NCBI GenBank assembly: GCA_017302795.1
Contig: JAFLCB010000001.1
Coordinates: 186,001 to 250,000 of the forward strand
Length of the DNA: 64,000 bases
Direction: 5' to 3'
From: Deltaproteobacteria bacterium
GTDB lineage: Bacteria > Bdellovibrionota > Bdellovibrionia > Bdellovibrionales > JAMPXM01
Within the stretch, counting starts at the first letter, position 1. Every line of letters starts with the position of its first letter. Below, one piece after another: positions 4,475 through 64,000 of the stretch. The position numbers were made by a program, and so were the translations under genes. The notes beneath the pieces were generated by a model, which was not told the DNA's origin, ran no database searches, and saw nothing but the letters and a program-made list of their open reading frames with translations.

Positions 4475-4945
4475 TCAGTCACACACTGCTTTTTGCACAT
4501 GGCCCAAGGTCTCCGAGTATGCGATTCGACAAGTTGACAGGCCTTTCGGCAGCTTTTGAATCAAACGAACCAAGGTGTTCCCGTACTGGCAAACCAGGAA
4601 AACGTCTTTCCCCTTCGGCAGATCAAAGAAAGTTTCGTTAGTGTGTGAGCCCGCTGGAGAAGGTTTGACGTCAAGCACCACCCCATCTTTGGGGTGGCCA
4701 TCAGAAAGTGTGGCACCGGTGAAGATCTGGCGAGAATTGAGCACCTCAACAAAAGGCGACCACCCCTTCACGTGAGCCGAAGGAGCCTGTTTCGTTCGCA
4801 CTTCTTCCGGGCACGCGGCCTCAAATCTAGGCGATTTCGCATCAGAAATAGATGCGGCCGCCTGTGGCGCCGGGTCGTCTGCCTTGGCTCTCGCCAAAGT
4901 CAAAGTCGTGAAAATCAGTAGAGCGAGATATCCCACAGTTTTCAC
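4475..4945 (-). CDS. Secreted STY0301-like protein
   Basis: A 156-residue exported protein. A Sec signal peptide (MKTVGYLALLIFTTLTLARA) is followed by a mature domain with the CPEE...W.PF start, a FTGATLSDG segment and a VCQYGNTLVRLIQKLP segment ending with conserved cysteines. This layout resembles the STY0301 family of small periplasmic proteins, whose function is unknown. The four mature cysteines could form two disulfides. It is the last chromosomal protein gene before the tRNA-Ser gene and the start of the mobile element. Confidence 0.6.
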   Translation of the reverse strand: MKTVGYLALLIFTTLTLARAKADDPAPQAAASISDAKSPRFEAACPEEVRTKQAPSAHVKGWSPFVEVLNSRQIFTGATLSDGHPKDGVVLDVKPSPAGSHTNETFFDLPKGKDVFLVCQYGNTLVRLIQKLPKGLSTCRIAYSETLGHVQKAVCD

Positions 4946-5096: not shown

Positions 5097-5186
5097 GGAG
5101 AGGTGGCCGAGTGGCTGAAGGCGCACGCTTGGAAAGCGTGTTTAGGGTAACACTTAACGTGGGTTCGAATCCCACTCTCTCCGCCA
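5097..5186 (+). tRNA. tRNA-Ser (anticodon GGA)
   Basis: A 90-nt class II tRNA. The acceptor stem is GGAGAGG paired with TCTCTCC (last pair G-U), followed by discriminator G and an encoded CCA at 5184-5186. The anticodon stem CACGC/GCGTG encloses the loop TTGGAAA, giving anticodon GGA at 5131-5133, which reads UCC and UCU. A long variable arm typical of tRNA-Ser and the T-loop GGTTCGAATCC are present. The 3' end is a likely attachment site, since the accessory DNA begins directly after it. Confidence 0.97.
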
Positions 5187-15900: not shown

Positions 15901-16097
15901 GTCACAGTTCTTTCGATCTCTTCAGGTGCAAGGCCTTCAATGACTGTATTGATCTGAACCTGATTGTTGGTGATGTCAGGGACAGCATCAATCGGTAGGT
16001 GCTGAAAGCTGTAAATTCCAGCAACTACCATAAGAAAAGTTAGAAAGAGAACAACGCCGCGATTGTAAATTGAGAAGTGAATTATTTTGTTCAGCAT
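12963..16097 (-). CDS. czcA: Heavy-metal RND efflux pump, CzcA type
   Basis: A 1044-residue inner-membrane RND pump of full length with 12 expected helices and two large periplasmic loops. It begins MLNKIIHFSIYNRGVVLFLT and has the VDAVPDITNNQVQI motif of heavy-metal pumps. The proton-relay helix reads DFGIIVDGTVIVLDN, matching the HME1 (Co/Zn/Cd) pattern DFGxxVDxxxxxxEN except that the last acidic residue is Asp. It works with an outer-membrane factor and an adaptor; the downstream partners here are the OMF at 16711 and the short adaptor-like protein at 16112, transcribed first. The exact metal is inferred. Confidence 0.93.
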   Translation of the reverse strand: MLNKIIHFSIYNRGVVLFLTFLMVVAGIYSFQHLPIDAVPDITNNQVQINTVIEGLAPEEIERTVTFPVESSMRGVAGVEQVRSITRFGLSQVTVIFKDSVDIFRARQLVTERLQGVSGDLPNSAKPELGPISTGLGEIYQFVLDFKEKKKGDERVKQLMELKALQDWFVKPRLLTVEGVAEINTSGGFEKQYHVQPDPKKMASFGIHFEDIGEALEKINKNVGGGYVEQTAEQFLIQGVGLIKDPKAIERVPVKSLESFKILTIGDIAQVTLGKELRTGSATYDGEEVVLGTVMMLLGENSRTVSTRVHAKIDEIRKTLPKDVEITTVYNRSDLVNATLGTVEHNLLMGALLVTIILLILLGNIRAALITAVTIPLSLLATFLVMKPLGISGNLMSLGALDFGIIVDGTVIVLDNCVRFLHDRAKYLGRNLDKEEIKKAVYESTVEIRQAAGFGQFIIVMVFLPVFALTGVEGKMFIPMASTFAIAVLLAFVLSFTTAPALASIFLSGKTVDKEPKLMEWIRRAYIPFFEFAYKRKNLTMGLGLLSVVLGVGLFMTRGAEFLPQLSEGSFAFHMIRPVNASLSQSVEFQRKADKVVETFPEVDHVFSRIGTSEVATDPMGVNVSDTYIMLKSRDDWPKIEGRKRTFQELTTLMVEKLEKEIPGQTYLASQPIQMRFNELLEGTRADVAVKVFGPDLDKLVEFAKKTQEIVSQVRGAGDVEVDLAGTSPVLRIEPIESKLSAYSGSVKDVLDTVSIALGGQEAGFLYEGERKFPIVVRLANDLRSDLGTIKDLPVGVGPNVLVPLGKLSDISFKETYGSVNRENSNRRTAVLINLRGRDTESFVLEAQKAVETQLKLPDGYYLEWGGNFKNLEQARSRLLILAPIALSLVLMMIYAAFGSVAQTFLIFACIPMALVGGVIGLILNGLPFSISAGIGFIALSGIAVLNGVVLVNFFNQLKAEGKTGKDLVLSGTLVRLRPVLMTALVAVFGFIPMMISTGIGAEVQKPLASVVIGGIISSTLLTLIVLPILFSRFESRMKGRVAH

Positions 16098-22775: not shown

Positions 22776-25700
22776 CTAATGTTGTGTTGGTTTTAATTCC
22801 GTATTTTTAGCCTCTAAATTTCGCTCCGCAGATTTTCTGCCGTATCGAAAAAAAACAGCTGGAGTTACAAACATATCTAAGAGAGTCGAACTCAAAAGTC
22901 CGCCCACGATGACTACAGCTACTGGGTGAAGAATTTCTTTTCCAGGAGCGCCTTTTGCGAGAACTAGAGGCATTAGCCCCAAGATCGCAGTGAGCGCTGT
23001 CATGAGAACAGGTACGAGCCGCTCCAGTGACCCTCGAATGACCATTTCCTTCGTAAACTTTTCGCCCTCGTACTTCATGAGGTGCAAGTAGTGCGAAATC
23101 ATCATGATGCCATTTCGACTAGCGATACCGCATAGAGTGATGAATGCCACCATCGTCGCAATTGAAAAGATTCGATCAGAGAGGTAAATCGCAACGAGGC
23201 TTCCGATGAGTGCCATCGGAATATTAAGCATAATCTGAACGGCGATGAACGAAGACTTGAAGTGCGCGTAGAGCACTATAAAAATGCCGATTAAGGATAG
23301 GATACCCAAAAACAAAATCAAGCGACTTGCCGACTTTTGACTTTCAAATTGTCCACCGTACTGAACGAAATATCCGTCTGGAATCTGAACTTGTTTTTGG
23401 ATGCGGCTTTGAACTTCAGTGACAAGACTATCTAAGTCTCGTCCTGAAGAGTTCGCTGAAACAACAATGCGTCTTTGGGCATTTTCCCGGTTGATTTGAT
23501 TTGGTCCCTGTGACTCGAACACATCGGCTACTTTTTCAAGAGTGACCTTCCGACCATCAGGCATGATTTTAAGAACCGTTTGTTTGATAAGATCAAGGTT
23601 GGCGCGAGACTTGTCATCAAAGCGCATATAAACATTAAACGTCCTTTGCTGATCTAAAACTTGAGCGACAACTTCTCCGTTAAGCGCCTTCTCAAGAGTT
23701 TCTGAAAGTTCTCCGGCAACAATGCCAAATTGTCCGGCCTCATCACGAAGAAGCTGAATTTTGACTTGAGGAATGAGCACCTGCTGTTCAACTTGTAAAT
23801 CAACAAGCCCACTTGTTCCATCAAGTGCCTTATATATTTCTGCGGCTTTTCCCCGAAGGGTATTGAGATCAGGTCCAAATACTTTGATGGCAATCTGAGC
23901 GCGCACACCTGACAAAAGGTGATCGAGTCTGTGAGAAATAGGCTGGCCTATGTTTGAGAAAACGCCGGATACAGATTCAAGTTTTTCGCGCATCTCGTAT
24001 AAAACGATATCTCTACTTCTGCCGCCTTCTTTGAAATCTACGTCAATTTCTGAATAATGAACTCCTTCGGCGTGTTCGTCGAGTTCGGCGCGACCAGTTC
24101 GTCGGGCAACAGATTTGACCTCTGGGATTTTAAGAAGAATTTCTTCTGCCTGAGTTCCAAGCTTATTTGATTCTTCTAAAGAAATTCCTGGCTGAGCTAA
24201 GACGTTTACGGTTGCCGTACCTTCATTGAATTTGGGCAAGAAATCTCGGCCCATAAAGGGAATCAAAGCCAACGACAAAATAAAAAGTGCTCCGACGGTC
24301 CAAAAAACAATCTTAGGATGATCGAGCGATTTCACCAGAAGTTTCCGATCCCAATTTTTTAAGGTCCTAACGAGCTTTCCGTCCTCATGCTCGATCAGTT
24401 TGTCCTTTGCTAAGAGCAACGAACAAAGGACTGGAGTAATAGTAAGAGAAACGATTAGAGAAGCGATAAGGGACACGATATATGCTACCCCAAGTGGAAT
24501 GAACAATCGCCCTTCAATCCCGCTCATATAAAACAGCGGAAGGAAAACAAGGACCACAATGATCGTTGCAAATACAATGGAGTTTCTAACTTCCGATGAA
24601 GCGTTGTAGACAACTTGAAGCGTGCTTTCTGGATTTTTTAGACCTTTGTTCTCTTTTAGTCGGCGAAAGACATTTTCAACATCGACGATGGCATCATCTA
24701 CCAATTCGCCGATAGCAACTGCCAGCCCACCCAAGGTCATCGTGTTAACGGAAAGGCCGAAGAAATGAAATACGATGGCTGTAACAAGGAAAGAGAGCGG
24801 AATAGCAGTCAGGGTGATAGCTGTTGTTCTAAAATTCAGAAGGAACATAAATAGGACTACGAAAACTAGAATGGTTCCATCGCGCAGGGCTTCTTTGACG
24901 TTATCCACAGCAGCTTCTATGAAATGAGCTTGCTTAAAAAGATCTCGATGAAATTCGGCGCCTTTGGGAAGGGACTTTTCAAGTTCCTTAAGGGCCGCAT
25001 CAATTTTTTCCGTCAACTCAACAGTATTGCTGCCTGGTTGTTTTTGAATGCTCAAAATAACAGACGGTTTTCCATTCACACTTCCGTCGCCGCGTTTGAT
25101 CTGCGGTCCCAGCTTAACTTCTGCTATGTCTCTGACATATACGGGCCGACCCAGATGTAAGCCCACAACAGAATTCAAGATGTCATCTTCGGATTTAATT
25201 GTCCCAATATTGCGAATCAGAAACTCTTTTTTATCTTGGTCAATGTATCCACCAGTTGTATTGAGGCTGATTTTTGAAAGAGCTTTTTCAATTTCCTCTA
25301 GGGGAAGCTGGTTCTTTTGAATTTTTTCGGCTGAGAGCAATATTTGATACTGCTTTACTCCGCCGCCAATTGCGATGACCTGGGCTACTCCTGGAACGGA
25401 CAGTAGGCGCGGTCGAATGGTCCAATCAGCAAAAGTTCTTAAGTCCAATGCGCTCACTTCTTGATTTGGAGAAGAGAGACCGATGAGTTGAATTTCTCCC
25501 ATGATAGACGCAATAGGACCCATCACAGGAGTTACACCCTGAGGAAGCTTTTCTTTTGCGAGCTGAAGCTTTTCGGCGACAAGTTGGCGGTTACGGTAAA
25601 TTTCAGTGTCCCATCCAAATTCGACATAAATGACAGAGAGTCCGATACCAGTTGTAGAGCGCACTCGCTCGACTCCAGGCAGTCCATTGAGAACTGTTTC

Positions 25701-25907
25701 TAATGGAAGCGTGACTAGCGTTTCAACTTCCTCTGGAGCCATGCCCGCAGCTTCCGTCATGATATTCACTGTAGGACGATTGAGATCTGGAAAGACATCG
25801 ACAGGCATTTTGCTAACAGTGAAAAGACCGTAGGCTGTGATGATGACCCCGACAGTTAGTACCAGAAGCCTATGGGTCAGTGAAAATCGAATGATTCGGT
25901 CAAGCAC
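22776..25907 (-). CDS. Heavy-metal RND efflux pump (CusA/CzcA superfamily)
   Basis: A 1043-residue full-length RND pump. It begins MLDRIIRFSLTHRLLVLTVG and has VDVFPDLNRPTVNIM after the first helix. The proton-relay helix reads AIGELVDDAIVDVEN, close to the HME3-like pattern and different from the other two pumps in the window. The substrate is therefore not assigned. No gene for a full adaptor (CusB/CzcB) lies in this operon, only the small proteins at 22369 and 25940. A GGAG site precedes the ATG. It is transcribed from the direction of 26371. Confidence 0.92.
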   Translation of the reverse strand: MLDRIIRFSLTHRLLVLTVGVIITAYGLFTVSKMPVDVFPDLNRPTVNIMTEAAGMAPEEVETLVTLPLETVLNGLPGVERVRSTTGIGLSVIYVEFGWDTEIYRNRQLVAEKLQLAKEKLPQGVTPVMGPIASIMGEIQLIGLSSPNQEVSALDLRTFADWTIRPRLLSVPGVAQVIAIGGGVKQYQILLSAEKIQKNQLPLEEIEKALSKISLNTTGGYIDQDKKEFLIRNIGTIKSEDDILNSVVGLHLGRPVYVRDIAEVKLGPQIKRGDGSVNGKPSVILSIQKQPGSNTVELTEKIDAALKELEKSLPKGAEFHRDLFKQAHFIEAAVDNVKEALRDGTILVFVVLFMFLLNFRTTAITLTAIPLSFLVTAIVFHFFGLSVNTMTLGGLAVAIGELVDDAIVDVENVFRRLKENKGLKNPESTLQVVYNASSEVRNSIVFATIIVVLVFLPLFYMSGIEGRLFIPLGVAYIVSLIASLIVSLTITPVLCSLLLAKDKLIEHEDGKLVRTLKNWDRKLLVKSLDHPKIVFWTVGALFILSLALIPFMGRDFLPKFNEGTATVNVLAQPGISLEESNKLGTQAEEILLKIPEVKSVARRTGRAELDEHAEGVHYSEIDVDFKEGGRSRDIVLYEMREKLESVSGVFSNIGQPISHRLDHLLSGVRAQIAIKVFGPDLNTLRGKAAEIYKALDGTSGLVDLQVEQQVLIPQVKIQLLRDEAGQFGIVAGELSETLEKALNGEVVAQVLDQQRTFNVYMRFDDKSRANLDLIKQTVLKIMPDGRKVTLEKVADVFESQGPNQINRENAQRRIVVSANSSGRDLDSLVTEVQSRIQKQVQIPDGYFVQYGGQFESQKSASRLILFLGILSLIGIFIVLYAHFKSSFIAVQIMLNIPMALIGSLVAIYLSDRIFSIATMVAFITLCGIASRNGIMMISHYLHLMKYEGEKFTKEMVIRGSLERLVPVLMTALTAILGLMPLVLAKGAPGKEILHPVAVVIVGGLLSSTLLDMFVTPAVFFRYGRKSAERNLEAKNTELKPTQH

Positions 25908-38106: not shown

Positions 38107-41100
38107 ATGATCGAAAAAATTATCACTTGGTGCGGAAGAAACGCCAGAGTCACAATCATACTTGCCGTTCTGTTAGGTCTTTGGGGCGCTTATTGCCTTA
38201 AAAATATTAAAGTCGATGCAATTCCAGATTTGTCAGAGACCCAAGTTATTATTTTCACAGAATGGATGGGCAGAAGTCCGGACCTAATCGAAAATCAGAT
38301 TACCTATCCCTTAGTTACCGCCATGCTTTCGGCACCAAAGGTGTCGGTCGTGCGTGGCTTTTCAATGTTTGGAATGTCCTTTGTTTATGTGATTTTTGAA
38401 GACAAGACCGATCTCTACTGGGCGAGATCCCGAGTCATCGAGTATTTATCAAAGCTTTCTGGGCAACTTCCACAAGGGGCAAGTCCTTCCATCGGACCCG
38501 ACGCAAGCGGCGTAGGTTGGGTATTCCAGTACGCCTTAGTTGATACCTCTGGAAAATATAATCTGTCCGAAATCAAAACCTTTCAGGATTGGTATTTAAA
38601 ATATTGGTTAACTTCAGTTCCAGGTGTTGCCGAGGTCGCAAGTGTTGGTGGATTTGAAAAACAATATCAAGTTGAAGTAGATCCAAATAAACTGGCTGCT
38701 CTTAAGATTCCTATTCAAAAAGTCATAAACTCTATTCGCGAAAGTAACAAGGATGTCGGCGGAAGGACCTTAGAGGTATCCGAACGCGAGTACTATGTGC
38801 GAGGGCTTGGCTATATCAAAGATCCAAGAGAGATTGAAAATATATCTGTTGGAATCGGTCCTAATAATACACCCATTCGCGTAGCAGATGTAGGCCGAGT
38901 CAGCCTTGGACCTAATATTAGACGCGGACTTTCCGATCTTGATGGCAAAGGCGACACCGTCGGCGGGCTTGTCGTGATGAGGCAAGGAGAAGATGTTTCC
39001 AGAGTCATAGAGTCCGTAAAGAATAAAATTGAAGAAGTAAAAGGAGCTTTTCCGCCTGGGCTAGAGCTTAAAATTATTTACGACAGATCTTCGTTAATTA
39101 AAGAAGCTGTCGCCACTCTAAGAAATAATATTGTCGAAGAGATCATCCTCGTCTGCCTGGTTATTTTAGTTTTTCTATTTCATATTCGTAGCGCTTTGGT
39201 TGTTGCCATCACGTTGCCGCTTTCGATTTTGATTTCGATGATTCCGCTATATTACTTAAATATTAGTCTCAACATTATGTCGATGGGTGGGATCATTCTT
39301 GCTGTCGGCGATATTGTCGATGGTGTTGTCGTCTTCATTGAGAACACGCATAAAAAGTTGGCCGCGAATAAGGGTGCCAGATCCTCACAAGAACTTGCTA
39401 TTGAGGCCTGCAAAGAGTTGGGTCCATCGATTTTTAGTGCGCTCCTTATTATTGGTATTTCTTTTCTCCCTATTTTTGCTCTCCAGGCCCAAGAGGGAAA
39501 GCTGTTTCATCCCCTGGCCTATACGAAGACATTTGCCATGATCGCAGCGGCACTCGTATCAATTACTGTTACGCCACCACTGATTGCATATTTTGTTAAA
39601 GGAAAAATAAGGAGCGAGCAGGAAAATCCAATCAATCGCTGGCTACTTGCACGCTACAAACCCATTTTGCAATGGTGCTTGGGGCACTCTAAGGCTGTGC
39701 TTGGAGGAATGTTAGCCCTAGTCACCATTTGCGTTTTTGCATTTACACGCCTTGGCTCAGAATTTATGCCACCGCTTTGGGAAGGGGATCTTCTCTATAT
39801 GCCGATCACCACTCCAGGAATATCGGTAACGGCAAGCTCTGATCTGCTAACCAGACAGGGCGCAGCTATCAAAGCAGTTCCGGAGGTCGAAACCGTTTTT
39901 GGAAAAGCGGGACGCTTTGAGACGGCGACTGATCCAGCACCCTTATCTATGTTTGAATACACAATCCGTCTAAAGCCCCGCAGCCAGTGGCGAAAAGGTT
40001 TAGATGACGAAGAATTAGTTTCAGAACTTGATAAAGCTGTCGAAGTTCCAGGATTAAATCGAGCTTGGACCAAGCCTGTTCGGGGCCGCATTGACATGCT
40101 CTCCACGGGCATTCGTACTCCGGTCGGGATTAAAATTTACGGCAAAGATTTAAAAGTTATCGAAGATATAGGACAGCAGCTTGAGCGCACACTGAATACT
40201 GTTCGCGGAACTAGAAGTGTTTACGCCGAACGAATCATTGGCGGGTATTACCTAGATTTCGAGCCAGACCGCCACGCCCTTGCACGATACGGTCTTAATG
40301 TCGGTGATGCGCAGATGGTCGTCGAAACGGCTATTGGCGGAATGGAAATTTCTCAAACCATCGAAGGACGAGAACGCTATACGATCAATGTTAGGTATCC
40401 GCGAGAATTGCGAGATAACATTGAAAAACTAAGCCGCATTCTTGTTGCGACGCCAACCGGAACTCAGGTTCCCCTTGGGCAGTTGGGAAAACTAACAACA
40501 CGAATGGGTCCACCCATGGTGCTGGATGAAAACGGATCGCTTGCCGGTTACGTTTACATTGATCTCAAAGACCGAGATCCGGGCGGATACGTCAATGATG
40601 CAAAAGAAGCAGTTAAAAGAGAGGTCAAAATCCCCCAGGGGTATTTCATTTCATGGACCGGCCAATATGAATATCTAGAGCGTATGCAAAGCCGAATGAA
40701 GATCGTACTTCCGCTTACGCTTCTTCTGATATTTGCATTCCTTTACTTCAGTATGAGATCAGTTTCGAGATCTGTCATGATTATGGCCTCAGTTCCCCTA
40801 TCGCTCATTGGCGGGATTCTTTTGATGTGGGCCCTTGGTTACAACACCAGTGTGGCCGTCTGGGCTGGTGCTATCGCGTTGATAGGAGTCGCGGTTGAGA
40901 CCACTTCCATTATGATCGTTTTCTTAGACCAAGCTTGGAACAGGCGAAAGGCCGATGGCCTGCTGAAAACTTCCGATGATTTTACTCAGGCCACTCTTGA
41001 GGGGGCTCAAAAAAGTTTAAGATCTGTTTTGATGGCCGTAAGCATGAATATTTTTGGGTTGCTTCCGGTCATGCTGGCGACGGGACTCGGAGCAGATGTC

Positions 41101-41226
41101 ATGAAACGAATTTCCTCTCCAATGTTTGGGGGGCTCATTTCATTGATGCTACTGACTCTCGTGGTGATTCCCGTCATCTATAAAATGCGCGAAGAAAGAG
41201 TGACCCTAAAAGGAGCGCCGTTATGA
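38107..41226 (+). CDS. cusA: Cu/Ag RND efflux pump, CusA type
   Basis: A 1039-residue full-length RND pump. It starts MIEKIITWCGRNARVTIILA and has VDAIPDLSETQVIIFTEWMG, a CusA hallmark. The relay helix is AVGDIVDGVVVFIENTHKKL, nearest to the HME4 (Cu/Ag) pattern AVGxMVDxAIVMIENxHKxL. It moves Cu(I)/Ag(I) from the periplasm or inner membrane through CusB and the OMF to the outside. The stop overlaps the start of the P2-type ATPase gene (ATGATG at 41223), so the two are probably translated together. Confidence 0.93.
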   Translation: MIEKIITWCGRNARVTIILAVLLGLWGAYCLKNIKVDAIPDLSETQVIIFTEWMGRSPDLIENQITYPLVTAMLSAPKVSVVRGFSMFGMSFVYVIFEDKTDLYWARSRVIEYLSKLSGQLPQGASPSIGPDASGVGWVFQYALVDTSGKYNLSEIKTFQDWYLKYWLTSVPGVAEVASVGGFEKQYQVEVDPNKLAALKIPIQKVINSIRESNKDVGGRTLEVSEREYYVRGLGYIKDPREIENISVGIGPNNTPIRVADVGRVSLGPNIRRGLSDLDGKGDTVGGLVVMRQGEDVSRVIESVKNKIEEVKGAFPPGLELKIIYDRSSLIKEAVATLRNNIVEEIILVCLVILVFLFHIRSALVVAITLPLSILISMIPLYYLNISLNIMSMGGIILAVGDIVDGVVVFIENTHKKLAANKGARSSQELAIEACKELGPSIFSALLIIGISFLPIFALQAQEGKLFHPLAYTKTFAMIAAALVSITVTPPLIAYFVKGKIRSEQENPINRWLLARYKPILQWCLGHSKAVLGGMLALVTICVFAFTRLGSEFMPPLWEGDLLYMPITTPGISVTASSDLLTRQGAAIKAVPEVETVFGKAGRFETATDPAPLSMFEYTIRLKPRSQWRKGLDDEELVSELDKAVEVPGLNRAWTKPVRGRIDMLSTGIRTPVGIKIYGKDLKVIEDIGQQLERTLNTVRGTRSVYAERIIGGYYLDFEPDRHALARYGLNVGDAQMVVETAIGGMEISQTIEGRERYTINVRYPRELRDNIEKLSRILVATPTGTQVPLGQLGKLTTRMGPPMVLDENGSLAGYVYIDLKDRDPGGYVNDAKEAVKREVKIPQGYFISWTGQYEYLERMQSRMKIVLPLTLLLIFAFLYFSMRSVSRSVMIMASVPLSLIGGILLMWALGYNTSVAVWAGAIALIGVAVETTSIMIVFLDQAWNRRKADGLLKTSDDFTQATLEGAQKSLRSVLMAVSMNIFGLLPVMLATGLGADVMKRISSPMFGGLISLMLLTLVVIPVIYKMREERVTLKGAPL

Positions 41227-55056: not shown

Positions 55057-55124
55057 CCTTTTGGATTTTAATAATAGCTGTCACAAAAAGGTGCGTTGGC
55101 TCGTATTCGTAAAGAGAAGGATTG

Positions 55125-55670
55125 ATGTCAAAAGACTTGAAAACAAAGTCAGACGAAGAACTTATGGAGAGTTATCAATTGGGTGCAAGTGCCGCCTTTG
55201 ACATTTTATTTCAGAGACACTCTGGCCGGGTTTTCGGCTTTCTTTCGAAACGACTAAACCAGAAGAAAGAGGCTGAGGATTTACTTCAGGAAGTTTTCTT
55301 TAAGCTTCATCGGTCAAAGCATCTCTTCAACGCGACTCTTCCTTTTTCTCCGTGGCTGTTTTCAATCACTCGATCTGTCCTCTTAGATTTTGCTAAGAAA
55401 AGAAATTTGGAAGACCCCGTTGCTCAAGAGGATCTTGAAAGAATCCCTTCGGAAGAGCATCACTTTGGTAAAAATCAAGAAGGTGATCTGGGCGAAAAAT
55501 TAGGGGCATTGCCGCAAACGCAAAGGCAGGCAGTTAGTCTTAGAGTTTATGACGAAGAAACATTCGAGGAGATTGCTCTACGCCTGTCCACCACTCCTGA
55601 AAACGCAAGACAACTTGTCAGCCGCGGCCTAAAGAAACTTCGACAAGTTTTGGGAAGAAAGGAAGAGTAG
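55125..55670 (+). CDS. ECF-type RNA polymerase sigma factor
   Basis: A 181-residue sigma factor. Region 2 is LMESYQLGASAAFDILFQRH, then AEDLLQEVFFKLHRSKHLFN. Region 4 is LPQTQRQAVSLRVYDEETFE, then IALRLSTTPENARQLVSRGL. The ATG at 55125 fits AAGGA before it (a TTG lies one codon earlier). It directs transcription of genes under metal or envelope stress. The next gene encodes its likely membrane partner. Confidence 0.9.
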   Translation: MSKDLKTKSDEELMESYQLGASAAFDILFQRHSGRVFGFLSKRLNQKKEAEDLLQEVFFKLHRSKHLFNATLPFSPWLFSITRSVLLDFAKKRNLEDPVAQEDLERIPSEEHHFGKNQEGDLGEKLGALPQTQRQAVSLRVYDEETFEEIALRLSTTPENARQLVSRGLKKLRQVLGRKEE

Positions 55671-55673
55671 CCT

Positions 55674-56204
55674 ATGGCTTCAGGTCAAAAAAATGAATGG
55701 CTCAAGGAATTTACTGAATTCTCCAATGTTAGAACCGACGAGATTCAGGTTCCCGCATCTGCTTTTAAAAACCTTAAGAAGCAACTTTTCCCAAATCCCT
55801 ATGTGGTGTTTGGAAAGGTCACGGCAATTCACGCTGTCGTAGGATTTTTGTCGCTGGCGGTTTGCAATCAGTTTGGGCTCAATCCATTTCAAACCGAACA
55901 GTCGTTGACCGATTGGTTTATGAGAATTGCGGGTCATAACTTTTGTATGCTTCTTTGCGGATTGTTCTTTATGGCTACGACCTATTTACTCGCAAATTTG
56001 TTTTTGAATCTTGAGGAGCTTGAGGCGATCAAGCGCTATGAATGGCTGCAAACAGGAATCATTGGGCTTGCTTCGTTGGCAGCCTTTTATTTCTTGGGAG
56101 CTGAGCTAATAGGCACATTCGTCATTTTGTGGATTGTTGGAGCGTTCATCGGTGCGCTTTTGTCTATCGAAGGAAGCTATCGGTTTAGACGGAGTTTAGC
56201 CTAG
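55674..56204 (+). CDS. Membrane protein, probable anti-sigma partner
   Basis: A 176-residue protein with a soluble N-terminal part (about residues 1-45, WLKEFTEFSNVRTDEIQVPA) and four membrane helices (about 48-66, 80-106, 123-141 and 145-163). The start follows the sigma stop by three bases. Membrane-anchored anti-sigma factors have this arrangement, but no conserved zinc motif is present. The role is inferred from the gene pair. Confidence 0.55.
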   Translation: MASGQKNEWLKEFTEFSNVRTDEIQVPASAFKNLKKQLFPNPYVVFGKVTAIHAVVGFLSLAVCNQFGLNPFQTEQSLTDWFMRIAGHNFCMLLCGLFFMATTYLLANLFLNLEELEAIKRYEWLQTGIIGLASLAAFYFLGAELIGTFVILWIVGAFIGALLSIEGSYRFRRSLA

Positions 56205-56271: not shown

Positions 56272-56375
56272 AGTGGCGAACTTTCGACACCAGTAGATCT
56301 AAAAATCATCGTATTTGGTGAGTTTTCGACAGCCTTCAAACCTAAACAATCGGGTATTGGTGAGATCTCGACGAA
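56272..56375 (+). repeat. Three-copy repeat array (exact 42-bp spacing)
   Basis: Three copies of a 15-bp element matching GGYGARNNYTCGACR begin at 56275, 56317 and 56359. Spacing is 42 bp, i.e. four turns of B-DNA, each time. The copies read GGCGAACTTTCGACA, GGTGAGTTTTCGACA and GGTGAGATCTCGACG. They lie 63-147 bp upstream of a sigma-54 promoter, the position of activator sites for NtrC-type proteins. A matching array occurs at 62115-62224. Confidence 0.75.
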
Positions 56376-56419: not shown

Positions 56420-56436
56420 TTGGCACCGCTGCTGCA
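56420..56436 (+). promoter_or_regulatory. Sigma-54 (RpoN) promoter of the peptide-sensing operon
   Basis: TTGGCACCGCTGCTGCA has -24 GG and -12 GC elements at the correct spacing (consensus TGGCAC-N5-TTGCW), differing only at the first T of the -12 part. It lies 41 bp before the start codon at 56477. Confidence 0.8.
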
Positions 56437-56476: not shown

Positions 56477-56785
56477 ATGAAAATGTTTCGAAATATAGTT
56501 GGCGTAATAGCCGCTCTAGTGGCGGGAGTTGAGCCAGCTCATGCGTGTGAAGATAGAGCTGTTGATCTTAGATCGCTCCAAAAAGGCGTCTACTATTCGC
56601 TAACTCCATCGGCAGCGCAAACTATGAAAATAGACCTACAGAAGCTTGCTCATTTGGCACGGGCCAAAAGTTCAAACGATCTTGCGTTTCAAGTCAAAGA
56701 AGATGGCGAGCTGGATCTATCTATTTTCGAAAATGGTGCTTTTAAGGTTCTGGCTTCGGATATTGTAAAGGCAAGCTCACTCTAA
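56477..56785 (+). CDS. Exported polypeptide, possible precursor of a modified signal peptide
   Basis: A 102-residue protein with a signal peptide (MKMFRNIVGVIAALVAGVEPAHA) and an ~79-residue mature chain starting CEDRAV. The chain is soluble and largely helical (TMKIDLQKLAHLARAKSSND) with one cysteine. It ends in ASDIVKASSL. No family is recognised. It is the first gene after the sigma-54 promoter and lies one base before a gene for an HExxH enzyme that resembles RiPP hydroxylases. The idea that this is the enzyme's substrate and the signal for the peptide-binding protein at 57586 is inference from order only. Confidence 0.55.
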   Translation: MKMFRNIVGVIAALVAGVEPAHACEDRAVDLRSLQKGVYYSLTPSAAQTMKIDLQKLAHLARAKSSNDLAFQVKEDGELDLSIFENGAFKVLASDIVKASSL

Positions 56786-56786
56786 T

Positions 56787-57584
56787 ATGAGCCTAGCTGA
56801 ACGAGTCCTCTCAGAACTAGGGAATGGGGAGTGGTGCATCCAGAGTATCGCTCCGTCATTTCAAAGACGATTAGCAACTGGATTACAGATTAATCCATCC
56901 ACTAAGAGTCTATCTGCGATGTGCATGGGATATTACGGGAAAACCCATCCTAATCACATTCTGATTCCATATTCGAGTGAAGCGATTGAGCCAATGCAGG
57001 TAAGTGCTGAGGCAAAGGCACTTGTCGAAGCTACTTTCGTTAAAGAATACCAGGGATCAGGTGTCTGTGAGTTTGAATCAGGAACACGAAAAAAGCTTGA
57101 GCAGGCCTTTGAGATCATTGAAACCGCAAACAGAGATTTATCGTCACTACGCAAATCAATCATCACCGGATTTCTTCGTGTTTCAGGCGTCAATTTCCGA
57201 AGTGCTTCGCATCCACATATCTTCGGGTTGATTTTGCTAGGAGACGGGGTTCGCGAGCAGACTGCGCAAGAGCTTGCTGTGTCCGTTGTTCACGAAATGG
57301 CTCATCAGGAATTATTTCTCGTAAACCTACTCGACCGACTTGTGAACGAGCCGTGGGATTACAATCAAGTTCATGCTCCGTTTCAGGGAATGAAGAGACC
57401 GCCCATCGGGAGATTGCATTCAATGTGGGCTTTGTACCGAATGGTGCAATTCCAACGCTCAATTGGCGACATAAATCAAAAACATCAAGTCCTCTTACAA
57501 CAGAATGTTGAGGCTTTTGAAGATCAAGAACTAACGTCGTTTGCAAAGACGCTAGTTGGGATCGCGGAAAGGCAGGCCAGTTAA
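56787..57584 (+). CDS. HExxH protein resembling RiPP peptide beta-hydroxylases
   Basis: A 265-residue cytoplasmic protein. The C-terminal half contains HIFGLILLGDGVREQTAQEL, then the motif VVHEMAHQELFLVNLLDRL (H169, E170, H173) and the KRPPIGRLHSMWALYRMVQ segment. This order - a GxIxL strand, HExxHxxL helix, then R-x-P-x-x-G-x-L-H - is the plan of the HEXXH peptide-modification proteins that act as iron/2-oxoglutarate beta-hydroxylases on RiPPs, rather than proteases. The N-terminal half (about 1-130) has four cysteines and is not recognised. It is placed directly after the 102-residue exported protein gene. Confidence 0.65.
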   Translation: MSLAERVLSELGNGEWCIQSIAPSFQRRLATGLQINPSTKSLSAMCMGYYGKTHPNHILIPYSSEAIEPMQVSAEAKALVEATFVKEYQGSGVCEFESGTRKKLEQAFEIIETANRDLSSLRKSIITGFLRVSGVNFRSASHPHIFGLILLGDGVREQTAQELAVSVVHEMAHQELFLVNLLDRLVNEPWDYNQVHAPFQGMKRPPIGRLHSMWALYRMVQFQRSIGDINQKHQVLLQQNVEAFEDQELTSFAKTLVGIAERQAS

Positions 57585-57585
57585 T

Positions 57586-59031
57586 ATGAGAAAGTGGCTT
57601 GTCCTCATTGGAGGGATTATTTTTATGACATCAACAACAGTCCTGGCTGCGCCAAAAAAATACGGGTATGTGCCACCGACATTTCCTCGCGACCCTGCCG
57701 AGGTTAACCAGTTCGCAGAACACATCGTTCTTGGTCAAATTCTCGAACCAATGGTTGATACTGACAAACTTGGTAATGTCACACCAGGGTTGGCCGAAAG
57801 CTGGACGTTTGAAGACAAGGGTCTGACAATTCGATTTAAAATTCGAAAGGATCGCACTTTTTCAAATGGGCGAAAGCTTGAATCAAAAGACATCAAATAC
57901 ACGATTGAGAGAGTCATTTCTAAAAAATCTCAGTCGAGTAATTTTATCGCGAGTATTTCATCAGTGGAAAGTCCGTCTGCTGACGTACTGGTATTGAAGC
58001 TAAAAGAACCAAACGTCTCAATTCTTAAGGCTCTCAGTCGAGATCAATTGGGAATTGTGCCGCAGGGATGGAGCTTCGACAAAAATTCAACCGAGCCCAT
58101 CATCGGTTCTGGACCCTATCGACTACTCAAACGGGGGGATAAGTGGAACTTGGAGGCTAATGAAAGGTATCCGCAAGCATCGGCGATCAGTATAAAGGAA
58201 TGGCAACTTGTCTTTTTTGCGGACGGTGATCTCAATGTTCCAACAGGAACTCTTCCCGATTATGTGCCTGGGGCTACACTTTCGACAAAAACTGGAATGC
58301 AGAAGATCGCGGGATTTGAAAGGCTCAAATCAATCAGTCAGATTAGCTACGCTCAGACATCGGCATGGTGGCATCCACATGGTACTCACTTTAGTTCTCC
58401 TGATGTACGCAACAGAGCCATGGGGATGATTGAAACCATCTTGGACAAAGGCTGTAAGAAGTTAGACTTGGATAGAGCGACCGGCGTTATTCCCAAAGGA
58501 GTAGCCGGCCATTTGACGGTAACTCATCCCCCGGAAGTACACAGCAAGAAGTTGCCGAAAGGCGAGACCTTGCGTTTAGCTTTTGTCGGCGCAACATTTG
58601 ACGACTTTTTGAAAGCCAATGATGTTCAGTCAGTAGCTAAAGAATTCGGTTTTCAAATCGAGATTGTGAAGATTTCTCCAGCGGAAATGGGAAAAGTAGC
58701 AGAGAAAAAGCCAGATGTTATTTTTGCTGGCTGGGCTGGCGGGTTCAATGATCCAGAAGGATTCATTGCACTCTTGCCTACCTTTCTTGGAAAGGACTTT
58801 CCAAGCTATATCGGACCAAACTTGGCTGAAAAATACAAACGAGCAAGGCAAGAAGAAAACTGGACTGCTCGAAGTGAATTGTTTCAACAAATCAATGAAC
58901 AGCTTCGAAGAGAGCAGTTCATGGTTCCTGGATGGCGCATTCCATTCTTCATTATCGGTCAACCAAAGATGATTTCCGAAGAGGCAACGTATCGCTATAC
59001 TCCTCGGCTTCATGCAGTTAAGGAGATGTAA
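57586..59031 (+). CDS. Family-5 (peptide) extracellular solute-binding protein without a transporter
   Basis: A 481-residue periplasmic protein with signal peptide ending TVLA. The SBP_bac_5 plan is present: EHIVLGQILEPMVDTDKLGN, GLAESWTFEDKGLTIRFKIR, FSNGRKLESKDIKYTIERVI, and PIIGSGPYRLLKRGDKWNLE; the C-terminal lobe has PDVIFAGWAGGFNDPEG. This family binds oligopeptides. No ABC permease or ATPase genes lie beside it, and the next gene is a membrane histidine kinase, so a receptor role is likely. The ATG at 57586 follows the previous stop by one base. It may capture the product of the 56477/56787 genes. Confidence 0.85.
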   Translation: MRKWLVLIGGIIFMTSTTVLAAPKKYGYVPPTFPRDPAEVNQFAEHIVLGQILEPMVDTDKLGNVTPGLAESWTFEDKGLTIRFKIRKDRTFSNGRKLESKDIKYTIERVISKKSQSSNFIASISSVESPSADVLVLKLKEPNVSILKALSRDQLGIVPQGWSFDKNSTEPIIGSGPYRLLKRGDKWNLEANERYPQASAISIKEWQLVFFADGDLNVPTGTLPDYVPGATLSTKTGMQKIAGFERLKSISQISYAQTSAWWHPHGTHFSSPDVRNRAMGMIETILDKGCKKLDLDRATGVIPKGVAGHLTVTHPPEVHSKKLPKGETLRLAFVGATFDDFLKANDVQSVAKEFGFQIEIVKISPAEMGKVAEKKPDVIFAGWAGGFNDPEGFIALLPTFLGKDFPSYIGPNLAEKYKRARQEENWTARSELFQQINEQLRREQFMVPGWRIPFFIIGQPKMISEEATYRYTPRLHAVKEM

Positions 59032-59032
59032 G

Positions 59033-60427
59033 TTGGCACCTCTTGCCTCCTCTCGAACGAGATCTATCAATCGGTATTTTTTAGGATTGCTTGTCCCTAT
59101 CGTCTTGGTGGCAAGCCTTTCCATCAGTGCACTTTTTGCCTGGAACGACTATCAGACAAACAAGGCCTCGCGTATGGAGAGTCAACGCCTGACGTTTGAG
59201 ACCTTTGCGGCGGTAATAAGACAACCTTTGATTCAAGGTAGCCTTATCGAAGCGAGAATTCGTGCCGAAGCCCTCGCAAGCAATTCGCAAATTGGTTGTA
59301 TTGAGATCACTTCCCCCTCAGAGACGATCAAAACATGCAACAAAAGTAATGCCGGTAAGAACACGGGCCTCAATCGAATGGATACGGATTTATACTTCTC
59401 CGAAGATAAATCAAATCTCATGGGCCATTTGACTATTGTTTTCGATAATTCGGACTTGTTGGCAAACACATGGAAAAATCTGGGAAAAAATGTAACTGGG
59501 TTTGTGATACTCACTATTGCGCTATTTTTGGTTCTTTCGGTAGGCTTTGCGCGTATTCGAAAAGAATTAAATGAGTTGATGAAAATCTTGGCCTCGCCGA
59601 GCGACAATCCACAAAAGATGCCAGTTTTTAAAATCAGCGAATTTCTTTCCTTGGGAAGCAACTTAAGTCATCAGTTTGAAGTGTCCAAGGCAGCAGCGAA
59701 AGCAAAGGCTGCACTTGATGTTGCTAGGCATGTTGCGCACGATATTCGTTCACCTGTAGTTAGCCTGCAAATGGCGCTTCATGCAGCACAGAGTCAGCTC
59801 GATACTCAAACTAAGAGCGCATTGAACAATTCAGCCCAACGAATCAGTGACATTGCAAACGACCTTCTTACCAATCACACACCAGCGAATAGAGTCAGTG
59901 AGGCAAGACCCCCAGTACAACAACTTCCAATGTCGGTTAGTCTCGCTCTCAATGAAATGATTGATGAAAAAGCTCTTCTTTGTAAGGGCACATCGAAAAT
60001 TGAAGTTATTGGTATTTTGGAAAATGAAGACACTCTTATTGAAATGCGTATCAGTGATTTCAAACGAGTCATCTCAAACCTTATCGACAACTCAATTCAG
60101 GCGATGCCGAACGGTGGAAGAATTCAGGTCGTCTATTCTAGGAAAAATGCAGAATGTTGCATCTCAGTCAAAGACAATGGCGTCGGAATGTCGGCAGAAG
60201 TTGTTAGAGACATTCTGGAAAAAGGCGGTACTTACGGAAAACCCGGTGGAAAAGGTATCGGATTTCAATGGGCTAAACAGAAGATTGAACAAGGAAATGG
60301 CCGTATTTTAGTTTCTTCAGAAAAGGGGCTCGGAACGGACGTAAAGGTTATTTTGCCCGCTTTCGCAGATTTGTCGCAAAAGAATTCACCAGAGGTACGA
60401 TTAAGTTTGGTTACTAAGGAAGCGTAA
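59033..60427 (+). CDS. Membrane sensor histidine kinase
   Basis: A 464-residue kinase. Helices at about residues 15-37 and 154-172 enclose a ~115-residue periplasmic sensor with two cysteines. The H-box is VARHVAHDIRSPVVSLQMAL (His236), the N-box VISNLIDNSIQAMPNGGRIQ, and the G-boxes are KDNGVGM and GKGIGFQWAKQ. AAGGAG at 59020-59025 gives the TTG at 59033 a seven-base spacing, so I choose it over the ATG at 59012. It is downstream of a peptide-binding protein that probably presents the ligand, and upstream of the regulator at 60447. Confidence 0.92.
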   Translation: MAPLASSRTRSINRYFLGLLVPIVLVASLSISALFAWNDYQTNKASRMESQRLTFETFAAVIRQPLIQGSLIEARIRAEALASNSQIGCIEITSPSETIKTCNKSNAGKNTGLNRMDTDLYFSEDKSNLMGHLTIVFDNSDLLANTWKNLGKNVTGFVILTIALFLVLSVGFARIRKELNELMKILASPSDNPQKMPVFKISEFLSLGSNLSHQFEVSKAAAKAKAALDVARHVAHDIRSPVVSLQMALHAAQSQLDTQTKSALNNSAQRISDIANDLLTNHTPANRVSEARPPVQQLPMSVSLALNEMIDEKALLCKGTSKIEVIGILENEDTLIEMRISDFKRVISNLIDNSIQAMPNGGRIQVVYSRKNAECCISVKDNGVGMSAEVVRDILEKGGTYGKPGGKGIGFQWAKQKIEQGNGRILVSSEKGLGTDVKVILPAFADLSQKNSPEVRLSLVTKEA

Positions 60428-60446: not shown

Positions 60447-61991
60447 ATGGAAACACCAAGAGTTATTTTTGTTGACGACGAAAGTTGCTTTCAACAGGGA
60501 TTGCAATTGTCTCTGAAGACCGTGTTTGGCTCAGAGCCATCGTTCAAAGCTGAATTCTACTCCCACCCCGAAGACGCTCTAGCCGCTATCAGAGCAAATC
60601 CGTTCAATGTCTTTCTTGTATTCATGGACCATCATTTTCGAGAAGGGTCGGAGAAAGTGACATTAGGGGCTGACTTCATCAAGCCTATTAAACGTATCAA
60701 TTCATACATTGAAATTGTCATGATGTCGGCAGACACCAGCCCAGAGAGCTTGAGATTGTGGCTCAAGAACGGAGCGGATAAATTCATTTACAAAGAGTTC
60801 TCTGAACAGCATGAAAAGCTCCAAATTTTTATTACCGAAGCGCTTACGAAGTTTCGGTCAAAGTTTAACTGTTTTCTCGGCCAGCGTAGAAATCAACTCT
60901 CCCAAGTTCCCGATGCTTTAAAAAAGATAGATGTCGTTTCAATAAATGCTACTATGAAAGCTTCGGCGGAATTGGTCCTTCAGTCTGCCGCATCTGACCT
61001 TTCCGTACTTATTATTGGGGAAACAGGCACCGGCAAGGAACTGATTGCACGAGCCGTTCACCAGAATTCAAAGAGACGCGAAAAGCAATTTAGAACAATT
61101 GATTGTACTCAGTTTAAGAAATCTGAACTAATCGCGAGTGAATTATTCGGTAGCGAGCGAGGAGCTTTCACTGGTGCTGAATCAAAGGTGGGGTTGCTTG
61201 AATTAGCAAATGGTGGAACGGTATTTCTTGATGAAGTTCATCACTTGGGTCCCGAAGCTCAGGCTATGCTCTTAAGGTTTATCCAAGAAAGAAAAATTCG
61301 ACGAGTGGGTGGCAACGTAGAAAAATTTGTGGACGTTCGATTGGTTTTTGCCGCTAAACCTATGTTGAAAGATCTGGTCGCGAGTGACGACTTTTTGGCC
61401 GATCTAATGTACCGAATGAAAGAAATCAAAATTGATCTTCCAAGGCTGATCGAACGCCCCGAAGATATTGAGGTGCTTTGTGAGTTTTTCCTCCACAAGC
61501 ACACCCCAAAAACTGAATCAACGATTCGAAAGCAGTTTCATCCCGATACGTTTGACTTGCTTCGTTGCTACTCGTGGCCTGGGAATGTGCGTGAACTAGA
61601 AAATTTAATTAAGCGTATCTCGGTGCTGGTGGAAGGTCACATTGTGCTTCCAGAGCATATTGAAAGATTCGGGGAGCTAGACTCTACGGCGATGCCCGAT
61701 AATTCATTGAATGCTTTTGAGTCTATGATTGATATGCAGGTCCGACATGAAAATGAAGCCAGAGCATTGATTCTCAAAACCTATCAGATTTGTGATCAAA
61801 ATCTGTCGGAGACCGCTCGTAAGCTTGGTATTGCCAGAACTTCTCTTCGTAGCCAATGCCAGGCCCTTGGCATTTGGGAGAGCATGGATGCAGTGACCAA
61901 AAAACATGCCTCTGAAGACAAGAAGGATCTAAAGCGACGAGTTGATAGCTCACTTCGCTCTCTTCTCAGTCGCGTTGTTGAAGTCTCATAA
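60447..61991 (+). CDS. NtrC-family sigma-54 response regulator
   Basis: A 514-residue regulator with receiver (about residues 4-130), AAA+ (about 165-390) and FIS-type HTH (about 450-475) domains. Receiver: acidic pair VDDE, phosphorylated Asp61 in FMDHHF, and Lys116. AAA+: GETGTGKELI (Walker A), GSERGAFTGA (the sigma-54-contacting loop), and VFLDEVHH (Walker B). HTH: LSETARKLGIARTSLRSQCQ. It would be phosphorylated by the kinase at 59033 and activate sigma-54 promoters. The repeats at 56275 and 62115 are probable binding sites. A GGGAGG site precedes the ATG. Confidence 0.95.
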   Translation: METPRVIFVDDESCFQQGLQLSLKTVFGSEPSFKAEFYSHPEDALAAIRANPFNVFLVFMDHHFREGSEKVTLGADFIKPIKRINSYIEIVMMSADTSPESLRLWLKNGADKFIYKEFSEQHEKLQIFITEALTKFRSKFNCFLGQRRNQLSQVPDALKKIDVVSINATMKASAELVLQSAASDLSVLIIGETGTGKELIARAVHQNSKRREKQFRTIDCTQFKKSELIASELFGSERGAFTGAESKVGLLELANGGTVFLDEVHHLGPEAQAMLLRFIQERKIRRVGGNVEKFVDVRLVFAAKPMLKDLVASDDFLADLMYRMKEIKIDLPRLIERPEDIEVLCEFFLHKHTPKTESTIRKQFHPDTFDLLRCYSWPGNVRELENLIKRISVLVEGHIVLPEHIERFGELDSTAMPDNSLNAFESMIDMQVRHENEARALILKTYQICDQNLSETARKLGIARTSLRSQCQALGIWESMDAVTKKHASEDKKDLKRRVDSSLRSLLSRVVEVS

Positions 61992-62112: not shown

Positions 62113-62226
62113 GCGGCGAAAGTTCGACGTTTCACCTCTTGATAAAAACCAAATCCCGAAAATGTTGGCGCAAATTCGACGAAGAATCCTATTGCGGTCT
62201 TGAGGGATTGGCGAAGTCTCGACGAA
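62113..62226 (+). repeat. Second three-copy repeat array upstream of a sigma-54 promoter
   Basis: Copies at 62115 (GGCGAAAGTTCGACG), 62167 (GGCGCAAATTCGACG) and 62210 (GGCGAAGTCTCGACG) match the array at 56275-56373. Spacings are 52 and 43 bp. The last lies 89 bp before the -24 GG at 62299. The similarity points to one shared DNA-binding protein, most simply the NtrC-type regulator at 60447. Confidence 0.7.
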
Positions 62227-62297
62227 CTAACCTACACTCTCCTTTCTGAAGAGAACCAAAATCTAACAATTTCAACAAGTTAGTTCGTCACAGGCAG

Positions 62298-62313
62298 TGG
62301 CGATCTCCTTGCA
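62298..62313 (+). promoter_or_regulatory. Sigma-54 promoter of the downstream operon
   Basis: TGGCGATCTCCTTGCA has the -24 GG and -12 GC at the right spacing; it departs from consensus only in the GA after TGGC. It lies 55 bp before the ATG at 62369 and follows the second repeat array. An AGGCAG motif just before the -24 is shared with the first promoter. Confidence 0.7.
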
Positions 62314-62368: not shown

Positions 62369-62620
62369 ATGAGAACAACGGGAAAATGCCCACGCTGCCA
62401 AGACGAAACATACGAGCGGTTCAGTACACATGCTTACTGCCATTCGTGCAATTACTCACCTGACTTTTCTATTCAGCGAAGACAGTGCGGTGATGATCTA
62501 CCGATTCCACCTTGGGCACACGAGGCAATCAAACAAATGAACAGACAAACGTCGGTAGCTGCACTTATGCCCCTGCCAATGAATCAAAAACCAAAATCAA
62601 AAAAAGGAAGTGCCGCATGA
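62369..62620 (+). CDS. Small zinc-ribbon protein
   Basis: An 83-residue protein. Residues 7-27 hold CPRC and CHSC pairs (KCPRCQDETYERFSTHAYCH), the plan of a small zinc ribbon. The C-terminal half has PIPPWAHEAIKQMNRQ and a basic KPKSKKGSAA tail. No family is recognised. It is the first gene after the second sigma-54 promoter. Zinc ribbons in conjugative elements may act as regulators or transfer accessory proteins, but that is only a guess. Confidence 0.6.
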   Translation: MRTTGKCPRCQDETYERFSTHAYCHSCNYSPDFSIQRRQCGDDLPIPPWAHEAIKQMNRQTSVAALMPLPMNQKPKSKKGSAA

Positions 62621-62889
62621 ATCAAGCCACAACACTATCGGGCTTAAAGGACATGAACCTCGTAACTCACATCAAAAATCCGCATTGGAACATAGAGTTG
62701 ATGAATAAGTTCTGGGCCGGAATCCGAAAGCTTAAAGAACTCTGGCAATGGATTTTGAGCCTTTGGATTTGGCGGATGATTTCACGCTTCGCCGGAGGAC
62801 TTTTCAATTTGCTATTTGCTACTCCCCCTGCGCAGGAGCAGATCGAGCAAGTAAGGGTCAAAGCAATGCAATATCGAAGTGTTTTCTAA
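62617..62889 (+). CDS. Unknown protein with amphipathic or membrane helix
   Basis: A 90-residue protein whose ATG overlaps the zinc-ribbon stop (ATGA). A polar start (MNQATTLSGLKDMNLVTHIK) leads to a Trp-rich segment (ELWQWILSLWIWRMISRFAG) that may be membrane-bound, then EQIEQVRVKAMQYRSVF. It is conserved-looking and in operon; no family is recognised. Confidence 0.55.
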   Translation: MNQATTLSGLKDMNLVTHIKNPHWNIELMNKFWAGIRKLKELWQWILSLWIWRMISRFAGGLFNLLFATPPAQEQIEQVRVKAMQYRSVF

Positions 62890-62904
62890 ATTCAAGGAGG
62901 GGCA

Positions 62905-63105
62905 ATGAGTGCCGCAGAGAATTTTAAAAATAAAAATCTGGACGAGCAAAAACCACTGACAGGGGGTGTAGTCCAAAAAATCAAAGAAGAAATTCGGAAC
63001 TGGTATGGAAGTCTCTCCATTCGGGAACTCACCCAGAATAAGGCATTGATTGCGGAGATCGAGCGACTTGAGAGCTTACTCGCAAAGGGCGCGGTGGTCG
63101 TATGA
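62905..63105 (+). CDS. Small helical protein of unknown function
   Basis: A 66-residue mostly helical protein with AGGAGG before the ATG. It has KIKEEIRNWYGSLSIRELTQ and ALIAEIERLESLLAKGA, a possible coiled-coil end. It overlaps the following gene by four bases (GTATGA). No family is recognised. Its operon position suggests a small accessory factor of the element. Confidence 0.55.
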   Translation: MSAAENFKNKNLDEQKPLTGGVVQKIKEEIRNWYGSLSIRELTQNKALIAEIERLESLLAKGAVVV

Positions 63106-63329
63106 TTGAGCAATCAAAAATACTGAACATGAAAGATGCATCGGATGACGCTGTTTTAGAAGAGGCGGCAAAACGCCTTCAAAGTCAGTATGCCCGCGAA
63201 CATGGAGTTGAGTTTTCGTATGGGACATTCAGATTCATCTTCCACGACGGAAGATTTCAAGGGGTCGAAGATTGGCCTCGTAATAAAAGATATGTGAGTC
63301 CCAAACGGACAAACAATGGAAACAATTAG
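63102..63329 (+). CDS. Small protein of unknown function
   Basis: A 75-residue protein. It has an acidic helix (DASDDAVLEEAAKRLQSQYA), then a short beta-like stretch (EFSYGTFRFIFHDGRFQGVE) and a basic tail (NKRYVSPKRTNNGNN). Its ATG overlaps the previous stop (ATGA). No family is recognised; overlapping starts and stops in this run argue for one coordinated operon. Confidence 0.55.
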   Translation: MIEQSKILNMKDASDDAVLEEAAKRLQSQYAREHGVEFSYGTFRFIFHDGRFQGVEDWPRNKRYVSPKRTNNGNN

Positions 63330-63355
63330 AAAGGTAAACTCTGAGAGGAAAATTT

Positions 63356-63514
63356 ATGGAAGATACGCTTGAAAAAATGGTTTTAAAAATTCTGGGACAG
63401 GTTTCAAGTCTTGAAAAAGAGCGCAATAAGACACTTGAGAGAAAGACCGCAAAAGTTTTGAAGGCTCTTGAATATATGAAAGCTGTTAGCAGAAATAAAA
63501 GACTGGGGGCTTAA
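63356..63514 (+). CDS. Small basic helical protein
   Basis: A 52-residue open frame, MEDTLEKMVLKILGQVSSLE, then KERNKTLERKTAKVLKALEY and a basic RNKRLGA end. It may form one coiled-coil helix. AGAGGAAA precedes the ATG at a good distance, and its TAA overlaps the next ATG (TAATG). It is likely a real small gene of the operon; no function is known. Confidence 0.5.
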   Translation: MEDTLEKMVLKILGQVSSLEKERNKTLERKTAKVLKALEYMKAVSRNKRLGA

Positions 63515-64000
63515 TGACAACAAGGGGTGCGGCAGGACAGCAGAATGACATTCCACTTTCAGCAGCGTTACTTGCGCTGATTGGGGTGAGTTTTGCGTAC
63601 TTTTATCTGACCTATTTGAGACTTCATCCTGGAGTCATGGAAATCGCCATACAGCAGTTGGAAAAAAACGTAGGATTTGTTTGGCTCACGCTGCTGTCCT
63701 TAATGGTGAATACGGCAGCACTTTCTCTTTTCATCAAACGCTCGGTAAAACTTGAGCGTCAGGGAAGCAAGCTTGCTGTACTTGAGGGGAAATCAAAGTC
63801 GCCCAAATTTGAGCGCATATCTGCACTATCATTGCTCCTCGCTTTCGGCTCTTATTTTGTCGTGCATAGTTATGTCGTTCACGTTGTGATCCCAGGAATT
63901 CCAGAGGTCGCCCAGCTCGCAGCCCAATACTATGTTCTCGAAATACTAAGTTCAAATATTGCGATCACTGCTGGACTCGTGAGCCGCTTTATTTTTAGTG
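63514..64000 (+). CDS. Multi-pass membrane protein, N-terminal part (cut by window edge)
   Basis: At least 162 residues in frame and open at the window edge. Predicted helices lie at about residues 14-32 (LSAALLALIGVSFAYFYLTY), 50-70 (VGFVWLTLLSLMVNTAALSL), 100-118 (ISALSLLLAFGSYFVVHSYV) and near 137-158. Between helices 2 and 3 is a basic loop (KRSVKLERQGSKLAV). The start overlaps the previous stop. It could be the N-terminal membrane domain of a coupling ATPase or other transfer protein; more sequence is needed to say. Confidence 0.5.
   Translation, partial: MTTRGAAGQQNDIPLSAALLALIGVSFAYFYLTYLRLHPGVMEIAIQQLEKNVGFVWLTLLSLMVNTAALSLFIKRSVKLERQGSKLAVLEGKSKSPKFERISALSLLLAFGSYFVVHSYVVHVVIPGIPEVAQLAAQYYVLEILSSNIAITAGLVSRFIFS

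Follow-up and report, generated by a model that had tools for sequence, protein, structure and literature searches.

The window, by which we mean the whole stretch of 64,000 nucleotides analysed here, carries five consecutive genes (called A to E below) that may encode a periplasmic signalling circuit governing the conjugation of a putative ICE. In this circuit, to which we give about an even chance, an enzyme (B) would oxidise a small exported protein (A), a binding protein and a kinase (C and D) would sense it, and a regulator (E) would act as the activator.

The operon and the element that carries it

The five genes follow one another head to tail between 56477 and 61991, and their layout indicates one operon; like the repeats, promoters and transfer operon described below, they are on the + strand. 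A (56477..56785) is an ORF for a 102-aa exported small protein, a candidate precursor or signal, and is separated by a 1-bp gap from B (56787..57584), which encodes a 265-aa protein assigned by profile, fold and residues to the aKG-HExxH-type peptide hydroxylase family. C (57586..59031) encodes a periplasmic solute-binding protein of the oligopeptide-type SBP_bac_5 family (1.5e-31), with no ABC permease or ATPase gene adjoining it. D (59012..60427) encodes a membrane sensor histidine kinase with an HDIRSP box (HATPase_c 6e-17, HisKA 6e-6), and E (60447..61991) a sigma54-dependent response regulator composed of a receiver, an AAA+ part with GAFTGA and an HTH (Sigma54_activat 1.3e-53). The operon contains neither a dedicated protease nor a peptide exporter. 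The first-pass annotation had covered only the first two genes (56477-57584), which it described as a possible RiPP-like pair. Both reading frames are real, and the pair is not a product of chance, since both genes and their adjacency are kept in orthologs. The enzyme family and the candidate precursor speak for that description, but the two genes form part of a sensory operon of five, linked to conjugation, and not of a stand-alone RiPP cluster.

The five-gene set, often reordered, recurs across Bdellovibrionota. The order A-B-C-D-E is found in the window, L009 and L049, while E comes first and is followed by A-B-C-D in L010-L012, L047 and L048; as the linkage survives this reordering, a joint function of the five genes may be argued. 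Between the window and L009, identity is 66% for A, 71% for B, 85% for C, 72% for D and 78% for E, A being the most diverged.

A conjugative transfer operon starts 3' of E (62370..64000 and on past the window), with an 83-aa CxxC-type protein (62370-62621), small ORFs and TraD/VirD4 from 63514. Its genes encode a TraD-type coupling protein, a T2SSE ATPase, TraE, TraK, TrbI (3e-24), TraC (6e-25), TraG_N and a MobA/VirD2 relaxase (2e-19), and a tyrosine integrase follows (Phage_integrase 1e-23). This single tract has a relaxase, a T4SS and an integrase, the combination by which an ICE is recognised, and the module would sit on such a putative element, just before its conjugation operon. With the metal-efflux cargo included, the tract spans roughly 78 kb between about tRNA-Ser (window 5097-5186) and G000:C1:269.7k. 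In the congener G001, about 9-15 kb separate tRNA-Ser from the 281-291 kb flank, as against about 90 kb here, and the window tract is absent between these flanks. No att repeat at the element ends and no copy of the tRNA 3' end were found, and a search of congeners with the right-flank protein gave no match. By sequence appearance, the metal-resistance cargo at 9.5-45 kb of the window includes three RND-type efflux pumps (12963-16097, 22776-25907 and 38107-41226) and P-type ATPases. Just 5' of the module, at 55122-56204, an RNA-polymerase sigma-factor-like gene is followed by that of a membrane protein resembling an anti-sigma factor.

The HExxH protein and its small neighbour

The first-pass annotation had read the HExxH plan of B as that of an iron/2-oxoglutarate hydroxylase and not of a protease, and this reading is borne out by profile, fold and residues. 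GLILL, HEMAHQELFL and RPPIGRLH, to which it had pointed, are all present in B, with HExxH at 57291-57305 and RPPIGRLH at 57396-57419. Against TIGR04267 (aKG-HExxH-type peptide beta-hydroxylase; NCBIfam cut-off 40), B reaches 51.3 bits, and it is the sole gene of this type in the genome; in the Pfam profile search no family, proteases included, reached its cut-off. When PDB sequences were searched with a profile of B, ChlH alone was retrieved (1.2e-4), with HE..H and RPP.G.LH aligned, so that RPPIGRLH of B stands opposite RPPSGLLH of ChlH. The top four Foldseek matches of the AlphaFold2 model of B (pTM 0.82) were all 8s5f, the HExxH domain of ChlB (E 2e-7, probability 1.0), and a TM-score of 0.55 on query length, with a high rmsd over a long alignment, indicates kinship of fold rather than agreement in detail. 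H169, E170, H173, R204, P205 and H211 do not vary across the 34 related sequences that were compared. These sequence and model comparisons support placing B in the iron/alpha-ketoglutarate HExxH family and not in a protease family. The chemistry of this family comprises beta-hydroxylation of Asp/His and Gln as well as oxidative backbone cleavage (PMC12636437). B was also considered as a zincin metalloprotease, a candidate rejected on profile and fold, protease folds ranking far below 8s5f (best protease E 0.02; weak zincin matches to 3c37 and 4l7a).

B has no signal peptide, as the annotation had stated, while A begins with a Sec-type signal (MKMFRNIVGVIAALVAGVEPAHA, followed by C), and so does every A ortholog. 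Mature A has 79 aa and, in the AlphaFold2 model, looks partly folded, with a small domain at residues 30-92 predicted at moderate confidence and a loose C terminus. No PDB fold match was found for this model, and given its moderate confidence, a known fold for A was rejected. Common to nine A sequences are the signal and a C-terminal (D/N)xS(I/V)F...D segment; the conserved C-terminal stretch reads LSIFENxxF...DIV. There is no sign of metal binding by A, as the window copy has a single Cys and most orthologs have none. Close to the C terminus, A of L010, L047 and L048 contains the ARMD motif known from Pseudomonas precursors (PMC12636437), which is absent from window A; we treat it as a lead only.

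In modules of the window clade, A lies directly before B, in the precursor-next-to-enzyme arrangement of a RiPP system, and this conserved adjacency together with the signal peptides backs the earlier suggestion that A is the natural substrate candidate. A Sec signal on a precursor had been called unusual; on oxidatively modified precursors it is indeed rare, yet there is a real precedent in bufferins (PMC12452194). It is plausible, judging from the sequences, that A is both the substrate of B and the signal.

A profile of B matched 20 of the 141 genomes of the order, and one HExxH gene in an unrelated setting (L055 of G097) was not counted as a module. The A-B linkage is present in Bdellovibrionales modules, while in several distant B-C-D clusters A is absent or doubtful. 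Of the distant HExxH matches (about 25-30% identity), the majority stand in clusters with a sigma54 regulator, an SBP, a kinase and a small exported protein, the last being unrelated to A in sequence. Outside the order, the HExxH/SBP/kinase core is kept in several families, sometimes with no clear small exported protein and sometimes with an MFS transporter. Distant relatives of B are accompanied by C and D more constantly than by any A-like gene. Because several distant modules (L121, L122, L127, L129 and L134) have B, C and D but no clear exported small protein, the substrate of B could be other than A, and we consider these modules the main caution against A as its only possible substrate. 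An MFS transporter gene lies between the HExxH and kinase genes in L121, L126 and L131, where no exported small protein is seen (Pfam MFS_1, tested in L121 only). HExxH genes in L118 and L119 stand beside proteins weakly similar to ABC exporters with a peptidase domain, which may be a further setting for peptide export. In PLSDB there were no plasmid homologs of B or C.

Regulatory sites and proximity to transfer genes

Three activator-site-like repeats, TGGYGANNTYTCGAC, precede the operon at 56274, 56316 and 56358 (56274..56372), exactly 42 bp apart, and a second cluster is found at 62166..62223, with a degenerate copy at 62166 and an exact one at 62209. L009 has repeats in both places, namely a trio at 4488, 4530 and 4572 with the same 42-bp spacing, and two copies at 10488 and 10582. 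The 4.23-Mb genome has only five exact matches to TGGYGANNTYTCGAC, and four of these lie at the two promoter regions of the module. The sole further exact copy is outside the element, at G000:C6:185194.

A sigma54-type -24/-12 promoter, TTGGCACCGCTGCTGCA, lies at 56420..56436, 57 bp upstream of A; its L009 counterpart keeps both elements (TTGGCACCTGAGCTGCA) with a different spacer. Before the transfer operon there is a sigma54-like promoter, GTGGCGATCTCCTTGCA (62297..62313), which is weaker than that of the module (score 13.8 of 16.8). Most transfer-linked modules have -24/-12 elements about 19-73 bp 5' of the first gene, distances for which the start codons of some modules were adjusted by eye. 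Such promoters precede the module in the window, L009-L012, L047-L049, L053, L057, L058, L062, L128 and L130. They also precede the transfer operon of the window, L047, L048 and L062, with weaker ones in L010-L012; where the L009 transfer operon would be expected to have its sigma54 site, none scored above the cut. Promoters and repeats alike are consensus matches and thus only candidates for binding.

At 10 of the 14 testable sites in the order, TraC is encoded no more than about 25 kb from the module (G000, G083, G028, G038, G058 and G036, and twice each in G085 and G024). The other sites are in G019, G032, G103 and G109, of which the G109 contig stops shortly after the transfer operon begins, while the G019 and G032 modules have no transfer genes nearby. 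A simple placement model gives P of about 2e-12 for this proximity, a nominal value, as sites were treated as independent though some are related. The transfer systems are unlike one another, TraC of the window type being 21% identical to that of the L010-L012 type, and a tree of B implies no fewer than four changes in the transfer-linked label. The module-adjacent TraD of L062, from the same order, is 92-95% identical to that of L130, from another part of the phylum, which is consistent with recent transfer. Control of conjugation by the module is well supported, and we infer from the candidate sites that E drives the transfer genes.

The proposed circuit, its alternatives and known systems

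In the circuit that we propose, B would act as a cytoplasmic Fe(II)/alpha-ketoglutarate enzyme oxidising A, likeliest in the conserved C-terminal segment, where Asp95 is one candidate. A would be exported by Sec, as its signal sequence suggests, and perhaps trimmed; C would then capture A or a fragment of it, and D would sense this, roles suggested by the conserved linkage. D would phosphorylate E, which may bind the repeated sites and activate two sets of sigma54 promoters, those of its own operon, as positive feedback, and those before the transfer genes. Transfer would thus rise once the peptide encoded by the element has built up in the periplasm or among neighbouring cells. Several points count against this scheme: without trimming, the 79-aa mature A, which looks partly folded, would be a large ligand for an SBP_bac_5 pocket, several distant modules have no clear exported small protein, those of G019 and G032 have no transfer genes nearby, and the transfer-operon promoter is weaker than the module promoter in the window and was not seen above the cut in L009.

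It is also conceivable, though we find it rather unlikely, that B modifies C or D, or tunes the circuit by oxygen, iron or 2-oxoglutarate availability, with A as an accessory periplasmic regulator and a nutrient or stress ligand sensed instead of a self-made peptide. The constancy of the B-C-D core in distant modules, where A-like genes may be missing or an MFS transporter present instead, would fit such a role, as would the many ligands bound by SBP_bac_5 proteins; however, every transfer-linked module examined has an exported small protein, adjoining B in the window clade, and characterised members of the HExxH family act on peptides (PMC12636437). An ordinary RiPP cluster, in which A would be the precursor of an exported bioactive peptide, the two-component genes would regulate its production only and the conjugation link would be incidental cargo, seems improbable to us. 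Peptide clusters are often carried by mobile elements, and both the enzyme family and the precursor-like neighbour agree with this idea, but it does not account well for an operon with no dedicated protease or peptide exporter, for recurrence beside unlike transfer systems, or for sigma54 sites and repeats that also precede the transfer operon. We consider it very improbable that B is a true HExxH metalloprotease processing A or another substrate: the motif is shared, zincins are weakly matched and PflC is proteolytic on a leaderless substrate (PMC12636437), but aKG-HExxH is the sole family above cut-off, 8s5f outranks the best protease (2e-7 against 0.02), and RP...H is invariant, as in ChlH.

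The proposed circuit has a wider form, which we hold only tentatively, at somewhat less than an even chance: mobile elements would encode a Sec-exported, HExxH-oxidised peptide which is sensed via a binding-protein/kinase pair and autoinduces itself and transfer through sigma54, a form of Gram-negative cell-cell signalling that would be undescribed. Our searches of open-licence literature found no account of such a five-gene module, and those for papers that connect HExxH with conjugation or with Bdellovibrio returned nothing relevant. If true, peptide-oxidising enzymes, so far known from natural-product pathways, would be linked to signal transduction, and peptide-based control of conjugation would occur outside Gram-positives. 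Within a phylum known for its predators, the module recurs on transfer systems that differ from one another, and, as the window copy rides with metal-resistance genes, the circuit may set when these genes spread.

B resembles the aKG-HExxH peptide hydroxylases (TIGR04267/IPR026337: ChlB, BpmH, PflC/PosC; PMC12636437, PMC12257519) in its HExxH, downstream RP...H, 8s5f fold and a small protein encoded next door. Unlike in those systems, it has no radical SAM, MNIO or transporter partner, its precursor-like neighbour bears a Sec signal, and it is embedded with an SBP, a kinase and a sigma54 regulator on a conjugative element. The bufferins, like other precursors that are modified by an MNIO and exported by Sec (PMC12452194), also have a small protein with a Sec signal encoded beside a cytoplasmic iron oxidase. 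However, their enzyme family is another one, and nothing in A points to metal binding. LuxPQ-LuxO quorum sensing of Vibrio employs, like C-D-E, a periplasmic binding protein, a membrane kinase and a sigma54 response regulator, whereas here the binding protein is of another family, the kinase is directly paired with the regulator and the proposed ligand is a genetically encoded peptide. In Gram-positives, conjugation is governed by exported element- or cell-encoded peptides, such as Phr of ICEBs1 and pLS20 or the enterococcal pheromones, and the proposed module would follow the same principle. It differs from them in that no Rap/RRNPP-type receptor is seen and in that periplasmic sensing by SBP and kinase, sigma54 activation and an oxidising enzyme are proposed, in a Gram-negative phylum.
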